Origin: Aminobacter sp. HY435
GTDB lineage: Bacteria > Pseudomonadota > Alphaproteobacteria > Rhizobiales > Rhizobiaceae
Direction of reading: 5' to 3'
DNA: 64,000 nucleotides
Assembly (NCBI RefSeq): GCF_027568395.1
Contig: NZ_JANKZL010000010.1
Location: forward strand, 1-64,000
Within the stretch, counting starts at the first letter, position 1. Each line of letters opens with the position of its first letter. The position numbers and the translations under genes are program-made. The notes under the pieces are model-generated. The model saw nothing but the letters and a program-made list of their open reading frames with translations. It searched no databases and was not told the DNA's origin. Shown one piece after another: positions 9,984 through 53,576 of the stretch.

Positions 9984-10322
9984 GTGACCCGGAAGCAGAA
10001 CATATCCTTTGCTAAAGTCGGATTCGCCGCTCTGGCTGGAATGGGTCTCGTTGCCGTCGTCGGTCCGCTTGCCTTGCACTTCGGCCTAGCAAGTTCAGAA
10101 GATCGGGCTGTTCTCAGCGGTCTATTTTCTTTGCTAGGGGTGTTTACATTTATTTTCCTCGGGTGGTTTGGGGTAATGCCTCGGGCGGGCACGACGATGT
10201 ATCTCCGTGGATATTTTGACTCTCCGCGCTACGCGTACATGCACACTTGGCCATTTTACCGTTTTGTTTTCCTAATCACGGACGACCCAAGGGTTCTTTC
10301 AAGAAAGCAGGGCCGTAATTGA
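9984..10322 (+). CDS. Small membrane protein inserted in the sox operon, function unknown
   Basis: A 112-residue frame from a GTG, 13 bases after soxB. It has two predicted membrane segments (about 12-33 and 43-65) and a basic C-terminal tail after a YFDSPRYAYMHTWPFYRFVF segment. I do not recognise a family. Base composition and codon use are visibly AT-richer than soxB and soxD on either side (runs such as TTTACATTTATTTTCC), and sox operons normally run soxB directly into soxD. An 88-base gap follows. It is probably an acquired gene; it is not known to be part of the oxidase. Confidence 0.55.
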   Translation: MTRKQNISFAKVGFAALAGMGLVAVVGPLALHFGLASSEDRAVLSGLFSLLGVFTFIFLGWFGVMPRAGTTMYLRGYFDSPRYAYMHTWPFYRFVFLITDDPRVLSRKQGRN

Positions 10323-40643: not shown

Positions 40644-40886
40644 TCAAGGATTCATCAGAACCGTGACCACCTTGGTGGCGTCGTTTTTGTCGGTCTGCAC
40701 ATCGACCTTGGCGCCGACTGCAACTTCCGGCGGAATGGCGACATCCTCAGGGACGGTGTAGCTGGTGCCGTCTTCAAGCGTGATGACGCGGGTTTCCTTG
40801 TTGTACTCCTTTACCACGCCGCTACCGGCGAAGGCGGGAAGCGACAGGGCGCCGGCGACTGCGAGTGCGAGAACGATCTTCTTCAT
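40644..40886 (-). CDS. DUF1344 small secreted protein
   Basis: An 80-residue protein with a signal peptide (MKKIVLALAVAGALSLPAFA). The mature part GVVKEYNKETRVITLEDGTSYTVPEDVAIP (shortened: RVITLEDGTSYTVPE) is the DUF1344 beta-barrel motif seen in rhizobial periplasmic proteins. Function unknown. AAGGAG lies seven bases before the ATG at 40884-40886. Confidence 0.85.
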   Translation of the reverse strand: MKKIVLALAVAGALSLPAFAGSGVVKEYNKETRVITLEDGTSYTVPEDVAIPPEVAVGAKVDVQTDKNDATKVVTVLMNP

Positions 40887-41011
40887 CAAAGTGCTCCTTT
40901 GAGTGCATCAGCGTTTTCGATATTTTTGGGGTGCGGGGCTTTGCGAGGCCCGTGCTGAAATGCTTCAGCGCGAGCTAAACCCGCAAACCGCTGATTGGTT
41001 CCGATTGGTGT

Positions 41012-41812
41012 TCAGTTGTCCGTCACGTCGGGAAAATTGCGGCCCTGCGGCTCGACAGGGTCGAAAAGCCAGTTGAGCAAGCCTGCGGTCAACGCAATGG
41101 CAACACCCGGCCAGATCATCAGCCCGGGGTTGTCGAAGATGAAGATGCGGTATTCGAACAGCATCGAGCCCCAATCGGGCTTGGATGGGTCCGCGCCAAG
41201 CCCAATGAAAGCCAGCGAGGCATAGGCGACGACCGCAAGGCCGGACTGGCTGCCGACATAAGTGAATGTCAGCGGTATCGTGTTGGGCAGGACATGGCGC
41301 AGCATCAGCCTGGGCGTCGTTGCGCCCAGCGCCCGTGCAGCCTGCACATATGTGCGACCAAGGACGCGCCGGGTCAGCGAGTGCGACAACAGGGCCTGCG
41401 GCCCAACCCCGGCCAGCCCGAGCGCCAGGCCGGCCGTCAGCGGCGACAGCCCGAACAGCGCCGCGGTGGTCAGCGCCACGATCAGCGTTGGCACGACGAT
41501 GAACATTTCGGCAAAACGCAGGATCAGGGCCTCGCGCCAGCCGCCGAGGATCGCCGCACCGGTTCCCAGGATCGATCCGCCGAAGAAGCCGATCAGGCCG
41601 ACGGCGAGGATCACAAGCGCCGTCCGCCAGCCGCCGGCCATGATCCTCGATGCCAGATCCCGCCCGAGATGGTCCGTACCGAGCAGATGGTTCAGCGAAG
41701 TTGGCGCATGGCGAGCGGCCAGGTCGACAGCGTCTGGATCGTGCGGCTGCCACAGCCCGCCCAGCACGAGGCAAACGAAAAAACAGACTGCGATGGTCGT
41801 GCGCAAGGTCAT
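41012..41812 (-). CDS. ABC transporter permease, peptide/nickel family (DppC-like)
   Basis: A 266-residue permease of the oligopeptide/nickel type: LLGTDHLGRDLASRIM near the N-terminus, the EAA loop VQAARALGATTPRLMLRHVL (20 residues shown) and DPSKPDWGSMLFE near the end. The start overlaps the stop of the DppB-like permease by four bases. It is the last gene of the B12-riboswitch operon. No ATPase gene follows before the DUF1344 gene, so the ATP-binding subunits must be encoded elsewhere. Confidence 0.9.
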   Translation of the reverse strand: MTLRTTIAVCFFVCLVLGGLWQPHDPDAVDLAARHAPTSLNHLLGTDHLGRDLASRIMAGGWRTALVILAVGLIGFFGGSILGTGAAILGGWREALILRFAEMFIVVPTLIVALTTAALFGLSPLTAGLALGLAGVGPQALLSHSLTRRVLGRTYVQAARALGATTPRLMLRHVLPNTIPLTFTYVGSQSGLAVVAYASLAFIGLGADPSKPDWGSMLFEYRIFIFDNPGLMIWPGVAIALTAGLLNWLFDPVEPQGRNFPDVTDN

Positions 41813-42735
41813 GCGCTGATCGGATCGAGCCGGCGCATGGCCAACTCGAGGCAAGCGTTCATCAGCAGCATCCAGCAGGCAATCACCATGACATAGGCCT
41901 GCAGCACCATGTGATCGCGGGCGGCAATGCTCTGCACCAGGAATTGGCTGATGCCTGGCAAGCCAAACAGGATCTCCAGCGCGGCGGTGCTGCCGATCGC
42001 CCAGCCGGCTTCGGAACGTATCGCCGAGAGCAGCGCGTATGCGGCGCCGCGGTGACCATGGCGCCATAGTGCCTGGCGCCGCGACAGGCCCTTGGCAAGC
42101 GCGGTTCGAAAATGCGGCTTGTAGGTGAACTCGACGAGATCGCGGCGGTAGACGCGCGACAACGTTCCCAATGCATGCAACGCGACCAGAAATATAGGCA
42201 GCAACCATGAACTGGCGTCGCCGGAAAAGGGGCGGATCAGCCGCGCCTGCACGCCGAGTAGCCAGATGAGCAGCAGTCCGAGCCAGAAGGACGGCACGGC
42301 CTGGACACCGATCGACAACAGGCGGCTGGCCTTGTCGGCCATGCCGTTGGGCTTGAGTGCGGCGGCAAAGCCGAGGGGGACGGCAAGCAGCGCGGCAAGC
42401 GCGAGTCCGCTGATGCCGATGGCGAGCGAAAGCGGCAGGCGATGGAAAAACTCCGCGATCACCGGCTCGCCAGTGCGGAACGACCGTCCCCAGTCGCCCG
42501 CGACGAACTGCGACAGCCACAGGCCGTAGCGGGCGGGCACGGGTTGGTCGAGGCCCCACTGGCTGCGCATGGCTGCGACCGTTTCGTCGGTGGCGGGCAA
42601 ATTCCAGGCGCGCAGGGCAATGTCCACCGGATCCGAAGGCATCGACGCGATGATGGCAAAGGCCAGGGCGGAAATGGCCAGCATGCTGGCGACCGAACGC
42701 AGTCCTATCCGGGTAGCGGTCGCCAGCACTTGCAT
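41809..42735 (-). CDS. ABC transporter permease, peptide/nickel family (DppB-like)
   Basis: A 308-residue protein with about six membrane helices. SMPSDPVDIALRAWNLPATDETVAAMR (cut: PSDPVDIALRAWN) and the EAA-like loop RTALAKGLSRRQALWRHGHR fit DppB/NikB proteins. The gene follows the binding-protein gene by three bases and overlaps the DppC-like gene. Confidence 0.9.
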   Translation of the reverse strand: MQVLATATRIGLRSVASMLAISALAFAIIASMPSDPVDIALRAWNLPATDETVAAMRSQWGLDQPVPARYGLWLSQFVAGDWGRSFRTGEPVIAEFFHRLPLSLAIGISGLALAALLAVPLGFAAALKPNGMADKASRLLSIGVQAVPSFWLGLLLIWLLGVQARLIRPFSGDASSWLLPIFLVALHALGTLSRVYRRDLVEFTYKPHFRTALAKGLSRRQALWRHGHRGAAYALLSAIRSEAGWAIGSTAALEILFGLPGISQFLVQSIAARDHMVLQAYVMVIACWMLLMNACLELAMRRLDPISA

Positions 42736-42738
42736 AGC

Positions 42739-44232
42739 CTATTGCGTTTCGCCGATGTCGGCGCGCAGCACGTGGTAGTCCGAACCCCAGGGCTGGTAGT
42801 TCTCCAGGCGCCTGGATGTGCCGACATACCAATCCGGCGAGACCAGGAACGACACCGGCACGTCCTCGAACAGCTTCTGCTGGGCGTCGAGCGCAATTTC
42901 GGCGCGCTTTTCGCTGTCGCCTGCCACTGCGAAGCGGTCGAGGATCGCGTCGAATTGCGGCGAGGCGTAGCGGGCGTGGTTGAGCGACGCGCCGCTGCGC
43001 AGCATCGAGTTCAGGAAGAAGGCGGGATCGCCGCTCGGAGCGGTGTGCTGCGCCCACAGGAACATGTCGAAATCACCGGTCGCGGCAACCTCGTTGCTGT
43101 TTTCGACAACGCCGGTCTCAACCTCGAATCCGAGCTTGGACAGATCGGCCTTGACCACCGGCAGCATGGTAACGAGGTCGGGGCGCTGCGGATAGGCAAG
43201 TATCCTCAGCTTCAATTGTTGACCATCCCTGGCGCGCTTGCCGTCGCTGCCTGCGACCCATCCGGCTTCGTCGAGCAAAGCTGCCGCCTTGGCCGGGTCG
43301 GTCGGGCGCTGGTCGCGCGCGGCGAACGGGAAGTAAGGTGCATAGGCGCCAGTCGCCGGGGCGCCGCCATTGATGGCCGCGGCAAGCTGCACGCGGTCGA
43401 TGGCCAGGTCGATCGCCTGGCGCATCCTGACGTCCTGCATGTGCTCGCGGGCGGTATTGATGAAGGCCAGGTACTGGTAGCCGACAGGAAAGGACTTGAT
43501 GTGCGTGTCGGGGCTGGCTTGCAACCTCGGCACCACTTCCGACGGCAGGCCAAAGGCCAGATCGAGTTCACCAGCTTCGAATGCCAGCGCCATCGACTGG
43601 GCATCGCCGAAACGCTTGTAGGAGATCTCCGAGCGCTTGTCGGCGCCGGGATAATGGGCGTTGGGCTTGAGACCGAGCGCGGCATCGGGCGTAAAGCCGG
43701 CGATTTCATAAGGGCCGGTGAACACCGCAGCGCCATCGGCCTTGAGGTGGTAGACGACAAGCGGCCATTCGGCGAAAAGCGCCTGGATCAAGGCGACCGG
43801 CTTCTCGGTGGTTACCCTGAGCGTGAGCGGATCAAGCGCCTCGAACGAAAGCTTTCCGCCTGTCGCCAGGGCAATCTTGTTTTTCTCGAAGGTGTTCTTG
43901 AAGCCGCCTGCCACGGTTTCGGCAGTCACCGGCGTGCCGTCCGAGAAAAAGCGGTCGGGGGTCAGCGCGATCTTCCAGTTCAGGTCGTCCAGGCGCTCGG
44001 CACTTTGCGCCAGTTCAGGTGCCAGGCGGCCGTCCTTGTCGACGGTGAACAGGTTTTCGCCGACGCCGTGGCTGGTCAGGGCCCAACCGTTGGAGCCCTT
44101 GGCAGGGTCCAGCCCGCTGGTGATGTAGGTGGCGCCGATCTTGAGGGCGTCCGCCTTGGCAGGTAGCGCGCCCGTCAGGACAATTGCCACCAATGCGGTG
44201 GAGACAAAGCTCGATTTGAGGACATGTCGCAT
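42739..44232 (-). CDS. ABC transporter substrate-binding protein, peptide/nickel family
   Basis: A 497-residue SBP_bac_5 protein with a signal peptide (ending LPAKA). It shows the family's ALTSHGVGENLFTVDKDGRL, LTPDRFFSDGTPVTAETV and QAIDLAIDRVQLAAAI segments. The family includes binding proteins for peptides, nickel and other metal chelates. Its ATG overlaps the stop of the CbiX-ferredoxin gene by one base. The B12 riboswitch suggests cobalt, a corrinoid or a precursor as ligand; that is inference. Confidence 0.88.
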   Translation of the reverse strand: MRHVLKSSFVSTALVAIVLTGALPAKADALKIGATYITSGLDPAKGSNGWALTSHGVGENLFTVDKDGRLAPELAQSAERLDDLNWKIALTPDRFFSDGTPVTAETVAGGFKNTFEKNKIALATGGKLSFEALDPLTLRVTTEKPVALIQALFAEWPLVVYHLKADGAAVFTGPYEIAGFTPDAALGLKPNAHYPGADKRSEISYKRFGDAQSMALAFEAGELDLAFGLPSEVVPRLQASPDTHIKSFPVGYQYLAFINTAREHMQDVRMRQAIDLAIDRVQLAAAINGGAPATGAYAPYFPFAARDQRPTDPAKAAALLDEAGWVAGSDGKRARDGQQLKLRILAYPQRPDLVTMLPVVKADLSKLGFEVETGVVENSNEVAATGDFDMFLWAQHTAPSGDPAFFLNSMLRSGASLNHARYASPQFDAILDRFAVAGDSEKRAEIALDAQQKLFEDVPVSFLVSPDWYVGTSRRLENYQPWGSDYHVLRADIGETQ

Positions 44233-45137
44233 CAGACGGCGCCTTTCTCTTTGAGTTCGGTTTCGTTGGGTTTGGCGGGAGCATGTTGGCGCAATGTCTG
44301 TTTGCGGCCGGTGGCGGAATAGGCGAACTCCTCGACGACGACGCCGCCAAGCAGGTGGTGGGTGACGATGCTGTCGATGGCGGCCTCCGTAACCCCGCCA
44401 TAGTAGGTGCCTTCGGGAAACACCTGGATCACGGGTGCGAGGTTGCAGGGGCCGAGACAGGTCGATTTGCAGGTCATTGTGCCGTCGCCAGCAAAGCGCA
44501 GTTTCTGCCGTTCCTGCTGGTTGCGCAGGTGCCCCCAGATCAGGTCGGCACCGGCTGCATTGCATGGGCCACCCTGGCAGACCAGCACGCGCCGCTTCTG
44601 CGCCGGCACAAGCGATCCCTCCGCAGTGGCCTTTGCCGCAGCAGCGATTTCGGGCGCGTGGACCGCATCCTGCACGAGTGACCCCATGAGATTTGCCAGC
44701 AGCGGACTGTCGGCGAGCCCCTGAGCAATGCGGATGCGCGGCCAGGCGGCAGAGTCTTCGGCCTGCCATCGGCGCAGCGACTTCGTCAGCCAGGTGGTGA
44801 AACTGGGCTCGATCGGCAGCATCAGCGGCAAGATCAGGATATCGCTGAAGCCCTCGGCACGAAGATCGCCGAGCGCGTCACGCAGTGACGGCGTGCCTTG
44901 TTCCGTGAAGCCGAAACGTGCCCCGGCGACACCGGGCAATGCCGCCACGATGGCGGCCAGTTGCTGCATCTGTTGGTGCGGCGCTGCGGCGAACGCCGAT
45001 TTCGCCACGAGCAGGACCGCCCGTCGCGCAACATCGTTGAGGTCCTGATCGATCGACAAAACTTGCAATCCCTGACCAACCGCTGCGGGATTTGCAAAAC
45101 GCGAACTGAAGGCGCTGGCCGGAGATGGCCACCGCAT
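44232..45137 (-). CDS. CbiX-like domain fused to a thioredoxin-fold 2Fe-2S ferredoxin
   Basis: A 301-residue protein. The first 155 residues resemble a CbiX/SirB chelatase (AIVAALPGVAGARFGFTEQG, then DILILPLMLPIEPSFTTWL). However, the first strand reads VLLVAKSAF where active chelatases have a metal-binding His (LLVxHGS), and the second His is also not evident. The C-terminus is a 2Fe-2S ferredoxin-like domain with Cys187, Cys192, Cys223, Cys227 and Cys231 (CQGGPC, CKSTCLGPC). AGGAG lies seven bases before the ATG. It is the first gene after the B12 riboswitch. A metal-handling role is likely, but chelatase activity is doubtful. Confidence 0.82.
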   Translation of the reverse strand: MRWPSPASAFSSRFANPAAVGQGLQVLSIDQDLNDVARRAVLLVAKSAFAAAPHQQMQQLAAIVAALPGVAGARFGFTEQGTPSLRDALGDLRAEGFSDILILPLMLPIEPSFTTWLTKSLRRWQAEDSAAWPRIRIAQGLADSPLLANLMGSLVQDAVHAPEIAAAAKATAEGSLVPAQKRRVLVCQGGPCNAAGADLIWGHLRNQQERQKLRFAGDGTMTCKSTCLGPCNLAPVIQVFPEGTYYGGVTEAAIDSIVTHHLLGGVVVEEFAYSATGRKQTLRQHAPAKPNETELKEKGAV

Positions 45138-45179
45138 CGCTCGCGCTCCTGTGGTACACCCCGCCCACGGAACTACACT

Positions 45180-45360
45180 CGGTCAGGCAGGTCTCCTGGC
45201 TCACGGGTCTCAGCTACGATGCCTGTCTTCCCGGCTTCTCAATGCCAGTGACAATATCGGCAGCGCGGCTCGCCGCTTACAGTTGCGGGGCAGCTTCGGT
45301 CTTACACCGAATTCCCTCTTAGCTTCCGCTCACCGAACGGAAGAACCATAACCGAGCGGC
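45180..45360 (-). promoter_or_regulatory. Cobalamin (B12) riboswitch
   Basis: Read on the minus strand, the region shows the successive conserved parts of the cobalamin aptamer: GGTGAGCGGAAGC, AAGAGGGAATTCGGTGTAAG, GCTGCCCCGCAACTGTAAGC, the B12-box neighbourhood CACTGGCATTGAGAAGCCGG and GAAGAC, and the closing GTGAGCCAGGAGACCTGCC. The end lies about 40 bases upstream of the CbiX-ferredoxin start. In that stretch GTGG and CCAC near the AGGAG could sequester the ribosome-binding site. Adenosylcobalamin binding should lower expression of the four-gene operon. It does not face metH, which diverges. Confidence 0.95.
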
Positions 45361-45439
45361 AAGCTATCCGGCGACGGCGCCAAGTCAAGAGCTGAGTTGC
45401 ACATTCAGGATAATGGCGGGATATTGGATGGACATATTG

Positions 45440-45459
45440 ACATAAAGATGTCTTTATGT
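45440..45459 (+). promoter_or_regulatory. Palindromic operator upstream of metH
   Basis: ACATAAAGA and TCTTTATGT are perfect nine-base arms around TG, 34 bases upstream of the metH start. The size and position suit a dimeric repressor. Methionine-cycle genes of many Proteobacteria are controlled by the ArsR-type S-adenosylhomocysteine sensor SahR, which binds palindromes of this kind; assignment to SahR is inference. Confidence 0.6.
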
Positions 45460-45492
45460 GACAGCGCATTGCTGTCGCCGAAAGGACGTAAA

Positions 45493-49287
<3,795 letters not shown>

Positions 49288-51841: not shown

Positions 51842-51916
51842 TGGTGGGCGTGACAGGGATTGAACCTGTGACCCCTGCAATGTCAATGCAGTGCTCTCCC
51901 GCTGAGCTACACGCCC
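51842..51916 (-). tRNA. tRNA-Val (GAC)
   Basis: On the minus strand the sequence starts GGGCGTGTAGCTCAGCGGG and ends CACGCCCACCA, with seven-base acceptor pairing GGGCGTG/CACGCCC. The D-arm is AGCTCAGCGGGAGAGC, the anticodon loop TTGACAT gives anticodon GAC for valine, and the T-arm GGTTCAATCC is standard. The CCA end is encoded. Confidence 0.97.
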
Positions 51917-53478: not shown

Positions 53479-53497
53479 TCCAGGCGACCTTCCGGGC

Positions 53498-53576
53498 AAA
53501 AAAAGACCGCTCCGGAGAGCGGTCGAGTCTAGGGAGGAAACGCCCAAGAAGGGCATGAACAGGAGAACCTGTTCGA
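53498..53576 (-). ncRNA. mmgR: MmgR/suhB (alpha-r8) family small RNA
   Basis: On the minus strand a transcript of about 79 bases can be drawn: hairpin GAACAGG-TTCT-CCTGTTC, hairpin GCCC-TTCTT-GGGC, the unpaired anti-Shine-Dalgarno TTTCCTCCCT, then a terminator hairpin GACCGCT/AGCGGTC followed by seven U. The promoter TTGACT with TAGTTT 16 bases on lies just upstream (53609-53582). Length, the TTTCCTCCCT core and position upstream of a suhB-type gene are those of MmgR, the Rfam suhB family, which in Sinorhizobium limits polyhydroxybutyrate accumulation. Confidence 0.85.

Follow-up and report, generated by a model that had tools for sequence, protein, structure and literature searches.

A cobalamin riboswitch heads a peptide/nickel-class importer operon without an ATPase gene, a candidate for cobalt scavenging, in Aminobacter sp. 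HY435

The window analysed here is a stretch of 64,000 nucleotides from Aminobacter sp. HY435 (assembly GCF_027568395.1, contig NZ_JANKZL010000010.1, positions 1 to 64,000). Its minus strand carries a cobalamin riboswitch followed by four genes that overlap or abut: a CbiX-like/ferredoxin fusion gene, a gene for an SBP_bac_5 binding protein and two genes for BPD_transp_1 permeases. The riboswitch (45169..45366, minus strand) is a full RF00174 aptamer above the gathering cut-off, with 123.9 bits in cmscan against a cut-off of 31.5 (E 1.2e-30, model positions 1-189); an Rfam scan calls no other cobalamin riboswitch in the window. An earlier sequence-only reading had proposed the riboswitch, naming an Infernal search as its check, together with this gene set and order; the cmscan result and the Pfam domain assignments bear out both.

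The first gene (44232..45137, minus strand) encodes a fusion of a CbiX-like domain (PF01903, 31.1 bits, cut-off 22) and a [2Fe-2S] domain (PF01257, 41.8 bits, cut-off 24.8). The Opp5A/NikA-like binding protein (42739..44232, minus strand) matches PF00496 with 221.8 bits and has two conserved histidines, His55 and His396. It is followed by a NikB-like permease (41809..42735, minus strand; PF00528 and PF19300) and, as the last importer gene, a NikC-like permease (41012..41812, minus strand; PF00528, 73.7 bits); the EAA loop, which is the ATPase-docking loop, is intact in both. The importer thus belongs to the type I ATP-binding cassette (ABC) transporters of the peptide/nickel class. No ATPase is encoded in the operon.

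The lack of an ATPase, already remarked on for the window, is conserved. Nineteen distinct alphaproteobacterial genomes combine a riboswitch with a ferredoxin-type protein, the binding protein and two permeases, and in none does an Opp-type ATPase follow; the search for the same gene set behind B12 riboswitches elsewhere, suggested in the sequence-only reading, therefore found it in 18 further genomes. A DUF1636 protein replaces the ferredoxin-type protein in two of the 19. RF00174 is present at every one of these loci, and NikD/NikE are encoded with the permeases at none (0/19). The permeases are 37-74% identical to those of the window (17 loci measured), and their EAA loops, conserved glycine included, are kept in 19/19 loci. 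Divergence of the four operon proteins is correlated (rank correlation 0.76-0.92, uncorrected for phylogeny).

Opp-type ATPases of the window genome were sought with PF08352 and a NikE-like query, the latter scoring 150 of 179 first-look candidates, and 18 regions were fetched. The count came to 16 Opp-type systems, and every one has permeases of its own; at L113 these stand about 2.6 kb away from the ATPases. In the three regions that lack Opp permeases, the ATPases are of amino-acid and thiamine type (L125), PhnK/PhnL of carbon-phosphorus lyase (L126) and of sulfate type (L127). No dedicated orphan Opp-type ATPase pair was found among the fetched regions, where all were assigned to other systems, and one is unlikely in the window genome. 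Sharing is consequently the simplest reading; since the docking loops are kept at all 19 loci while no ATPase is encoded, the importer most likely borrows its ATPase from another transporter.

A lead on the lender comes from comparing docking loops. For the first permease the best match in each genome is the transporter found at L131 in genome G016 (15/29) and at L124 in the window genome (14/29). For the second permease L124 and L118 reach the same score, 14; of the G016 systems, L138 (15) and L133 (14) exceed L131 (12). The ATPase frame of L124 passes both the NikD and the NikE cut-off, with a score summed over two ABC domains. ATPase sharing is described in metal-compound uptake for FhuC with IsdF (in part of PMC10147376) and for type I sugar importers (in part of PMC7658222). 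In these sources the permeases are likewise served, through the coupling helix, by an ATPase from elsewhere (an MsmX-type multitask ATPase or FhuC); they concern sugar and iron-compound importers, whereas the window importer is of the Opp/Nik class and its sharing is proposed from sequence.

The N-terminal domain of the first protein has the class II chelatase fold: besides PF01903, the best Foldseek matches are CbiX (3lyh) and CfbA, and the matches include sirohydrochlorin- and uroporphyrin-bound entries. The AlphaFold model (mean predicted local distance difference test, pLDDT, 53.4) is weak beyond this domain. Active class II chelatases use two histidines, according to the part of PMC7689651 available. 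Alignment with the histidine-bearing lobes of the Halorussus and Thermus proteins maps these positions to Lys46 and Ser112 in the window protein; the second is also placed by alignment to 3lyh. Both histidines are absent in all 17 aligned proteins, the first being replaced by Lys or Arg and the second by Ser or Gly. Non-aligned histidines stand at +8 from the first position in 16/17 and at +2 from the second in 8/17, the window protein not being one of these eight; given these neighbours, the domain may have an altered metal site. The four cysteine ligands of the [2Fe-2S] cluster (a CxxxxC and a CxxxC pair) in the NuoE-like PF01257 domain are kept in 17/17. Judged by these residues, the CbiX-like/ferredoxin protein is probably not a chelatase. 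An active cobaltochelatase in particular is rejected because both catalytic histidines are missing and the window genome has CobN. The earlier label of CbiX-like holds for the fold; its reading as a working chelatase is not supported.

CbiX proteins of Halorussus and Thermus with a C-terminal [2Fe-2S] domain resemble the window protein in the chelatase fold and the thioredoxin-like [2Fe-2S] region. They differ in having two lobes, the first with the histidine motifs, whereas the window protein has a single lobe without those histidines; their genes stand among cobalamin-synthesis genes, while the window gene precedes an importer. Full-length alignment suggested that the window protein is a degenerate form of the second lobe in haloarchaeal CbiX; this was dropped because lobe-wise alignment is undecided, the protein being about equally similar to either Halorussus lobe (27/116 and 25/111 positions). 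In the longest frame the conserved core begins at about residue 38; translation may accordingly start at a TTG near 45059 and not at the ATG at 45137; this choice of codon, guided by spacing in other loci, is tentative.

At E up to 1e-50, CbiX-ferredoxin proteins occur in 14 of 297 family genomes, and eight of the 14 have the window-type binding protein. In three others of the 14 (G002, G004 and G017), as well as in G009, the binding protein is of another type with about 30% identity, its reading divided between two frames in G004, and has permeases of its own. Of these permeases, the second is joined to an ATPase in a frame of 584-603 residues; a second ATPase gene is called in 3/4 of these loci and is not called by the gene picker in L045. 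No such importer lies directly behind the CbiX-ferredoxin gene in G005, G007 and G061 (of the 14), nor in G001, G003 and G006; some kb away, G001, G003 and G007 have an Opp-type cluster on the other strand. RF00174 is found at all ten CbiX-ferredoxin loci L039-L048, in a scan that was run without L049, a remnant, and L189.

Less closely related ferredoxin proteins, 27-29% identical, stand behind a cobalamin riboswitch in 3/3 Azospirillum loci, which adjoin an ATPase, a binding protein, an iron-type permease and a TonB receptor. In Rhodococcus PD04 a related ferredoxin protein is found behind a cobalamin riboswitch with an iron-type ABC transporter. CobN is present in all ten operon-bearing genomes tested, a count that covers such genomes only and has no comparison set. 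With the related proteins at other riboswitch-led importers, this agrees with the cobalt or corrinoid context first proposed for the operon. On a plasmid of Shinella WSC3-e (L151), the operon adjoins metE and nrdHIE, which have separate cobalamin riboswitches; this region is a B12-shortage island. The same three cobalamin riboswitches are seen in Shinella yambaruensis (L141). The Rhodococcus PD04 plasmid L155 carries two convergent iron-type ABC operons with low-scoring cobalamin riboswitches (39.3 and 41.7 bits, at 501-634 and 10057-10179); one operon ends in the ferredoxin protein and the other in a different (2Fe-2S)-binding protein and a hypothetical gene.

Nickel models are the nearest in NCBIfam for each of the three importer proteins, and none of the NikA, NikB and NikC equivalog cut-offs is reached: the binding protein scores 246.6 bits with NF045468 (cut-off 600), the NikB-like permease 234.3 with NF045470 (cut-off 350) and the NikC-like permease 169.4 with NF045474 (cut-off 300). 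The nearest PDB entry to the binding protein is 3t66. His55 and His396 are invariant in nine aligned orthologues; the pair is also present in binding proteins of Paracoccus, G117, G141, Fusobacterium and Aerococcus. The ATPase-bearing type of binding protein in relatives has Asn and Cys at these positions, the L124 binding protein has a counterpart of His396 only, and neither histidine occurs in the nickel-binding proteins aligned, 3t66 and SaNikA. The AlphaFold model of the binding protein (mean pLDDT 63.7) is too weak for pocket analysis.

The favoured reading, with a probability of about 0.5, is that of a cobalt-scavenging operon under B12 repression, whose cargo is most likely a cobalt chelate and which works with a borrowed ATPase and a cargo-handling ferredoxin protein. 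B12 synthesis requires cobalt. At low coenzyme B12 the riboswitch would permit expression of the operon. The SBP_bac_5 protein would capture a cobalt compound in the periplasm, perhaps through His55 and His396, and the NikB/NikC-type permeases would move it across the inner membrane, powered by the ATPases of another peptide/nickel transporter. In the cytoplasm, the dead chelatase-[2Fe-2S] protein may bind the cargo, reduce it and help to free or hand over the cobalt, which would then enter CobN-dependent B12 synthesis. Three further cobalamin riboswitches of the window genome lie upstream of a gene for the cobalt transporter CbtA, of a CobW gene with a cob cluster, and of a nitroreductase-family gene that is presumably bluB; the two genes downstream of CbtA are taken, from their sequence, to be cobU and cobO. 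Uptake of the cobalt ion alone would be redundant given the CbtA gene.

A number of observations count against this reading. The window genome already has that riboswitch-led CbtA gene. The candidate lender at L124/L131, the top docking-loop match for the first permease, is not the best for the second; its transporter is present in 10/10 operon-bearing genomes but also in 39/61 relatives at the same threshold, the 61 including the window genome and G016, two of the ten. Relatives of the binding protein in Fusobacterium and Aerococcus (35-36% identity, with ATPases) share both histidines with no riboswitch in the fetched stretch; for this reason the histidine pair cannot be counted as a sign of cobalt. 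The window-type binding protein is missing from six of the 14 CbiX-ferredoxin genomes. At another Rhodococcus locus that encodes the ferredoxin protein no riboswitch is seen, and the Azospirillum and Rhodococcus proteins have no CbiX domain recognised by Pfam. Both AlphaFold models, of the first protein and of the binding protein, are of low to medium confidence.

Several alternatives differ from a cobalt-chelate importer in cargo. The main rival, which is judged rather unlikely, is import of corrinoids or precursors such as cobinamide and cobyric acid; the chelatase fold would bind the tetrapyrrole and the [2Fe-2S] cluster would reduce its cobalt. Corrinoid uptake is also controlled by cobalamin riboswitches (in part of PMC3766115), and this rival would account for the tetrapyrrole-bound Foldseek matches and for a cobalt transporter gene, CbtA, being already present; SBP_bac_5 relatives also include a heme-binding protein. 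Set against this, the nearest relatives of the binding protein are nickel-type proteins, no TonB-dependent receptor is annotated at three operon loci with (incomplete) annotation, and CobN in every tested operon genome makes use of cobalt itself possible. Less probable again is a nickel or general metal-chelate importer (e.g. for metal-histidine) that came under B12 control incidentally. This is suggested by the best NCBIfam models, all three of which are nickel models; every one is below its cut-off, however, and the cobalamin riboswitch at 19/19 loci points to cobalt or corrinoids.

Other alternatives concern the missing ATPase. It could be dedicated to the importer and encoded elsewhere; this is improbable. 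In G016, L132 is an Opp-type pair with no permeases over the 14.5 kb fetched and L129 is a pair with its nearest permeases about 4 kb off on the other strand, and the Paracoccus operon lies directly downstream of a complete transporter with two ATPases. The L132 relatives in the window genome (54-58%, at L113), however, are the ATPases about 2.6 kb from their own permeases, and no Opp-type pair is left unassigned among the fetched regions. Slightly more improbable still is a decaying remnant which has lost its ATPases and no longer transports. Loss could explain why no ATPase is present, why the binding protein of G094 reads over two frames, and why G001, G003, G005, G006, G007 and G061 keep the first gene with no importer of this type behind it. 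The four proteins nonetheless have full-size frames in the other loci, the permeases and docking loops are conserved as described above, and the four proteins diverge in a correlated way; an operon intact so widely is improbable as a dead one. A bolder version of the favoured cobalt reading is doubtful: a cobalt module of new design, in which a long ATPase-less Opp/Nik-class importer runs on lent ATPases with a reductive dechelatase for Co(III) chelates, ferredoxins having joined several importer types independently.

The tentative expression platform (45057..45168, minus strand) is the stretch of about 110 nucleotides from the aptamer to the likely conserved start. A hairpin can be drawn in the leader whose 3' arm includes a purine-rich Shine-Dalgarno-like stretch, and no terminator is called there. 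Folding of the window leader is weak (z -0.41; 68/200 shuffles equally stable). A start codon can be chosen 89-115 nucleotides past the aptamer in 19 loci, hand-picked among several candidates and with L178, which the motif search missed, left out. Many of 19 loci, inspected by eye, allow a hairpin that takes in the Shine-Dalgarno-like stretch; the assignment is tentative because z falls below -2 in only two of the 19.

Divergent from the operon lies metH (45493..49287, plus strand), which scores above the TIGR02082 and NF007024 cut-offs (2183 bits with NF007024). The sequence-only reading had linked this B12-dependent gene to the operon through their common upstream gap. The divergent adjacency is real; a functional link is not supported, on two counts. 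A MetH search of the fetched flanks (E up to 1e-6) found none beside the 18 other operon loci; of the loci compared, only G005 and G006 have the metH neighbourhood too, plus a remnant in G009, all in the window's genus. In addition, metH has a palindromic operator of its own, apart from the riboswitch (45442..45457, plus strand; ATAAAGATGTCTTTAT). The palindrome, ATAAAGA-NN-TCTTTAT, occurs in none of 100 shuffles of the window and at four sites in the 4.6-Mb genome, against none for the reversed control; the other three sites are near ahcY, a homocysteine S-methyltransferase gene and a pterin-binding methyltransferase gene. It is presumably a SahR operator. A control region shared by metH and the importer is rejected because the adjacency is restricted to one genus and the operator is separate.

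The remnant in G009 consists of two CbiX-ferredoxin gene fragments next to metH (contig C1, 4940041-4940472; L049 and L027). They are a decayed copy of the window locus; G009 also has an intact CbiX-ferredoxin copy with a full transporter elsewhere. On the operon strand of the window, the next gene encodes an 81-residue DUF1344 protein (40644-40889, minus strand), 122 bp past the last permease gene. The extent first given for the operon, 40887..45492, is right for the importer genes and too long at 40887-41011, which holds the start of the DUF1344 gene (40889-40644) and the gap. Downstream of metH are an mmgR/suhB-type small RNA (RF00519, 62.6 bits; 53490-53561) and a transfer RNA gene (51845-51916).

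Related systems are known. NikABCDE/Opp5A nickel importers have an SBP_bac_5 protein and NikB/NikC-like permeases, and NikABCDE of the Firmicutes C. tetani and D. hafniense are predicted to lie behind a B12 riboswitch in the available part of PMC2667541. Unlike these, the window operon has no NikD/NikE, falls below the nickel equivalog cut-offs and has a ferredoxin protein at its head. CbtA(B), the proposed cobalt transporter, belongs to an unrelated protein family; the CbtA gene of the window genome likewise lies behind a cobalamin riboswitch. CbtA(B) is not known to be a binding-protein-dependent importer. CbtJKL-type cobalt importers have an ATPase of their own. The window operon has none, and its binding protein matches PF00496 only and its permeases PF00528; CbtJ, in contrast, is described as BtuF-like, and CbtJKL of Sinorhizobium meliloti is a rhizobial ABC-type cobalt uptake system under a cobalamin riboswitch (in part of PMC7689651). 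The literature searched, mostly open-access, contains no account of an ATPase-less operon of this kind, which may be listed in a regulon database; the accessible parts of PMC12239276, PMC8305020, PMC2732905 and PMC5315480 do not describe it.

A rhizobium lacking its own cobalt transporter grows poorly at trace cobalt, as reported in parts of PMC7689651 and PMC12239276. A conserved ATPase-less importer of the peptide/nickel class would extend the described sharing of ATPases beyond sugar and iron-compound uptake, and completeness of an operon, when used as a criterion, can miss a working transporter. The ferredoxin protein is a concrete candidate for a poorly understood step, the release of cobalt from an imported complex.

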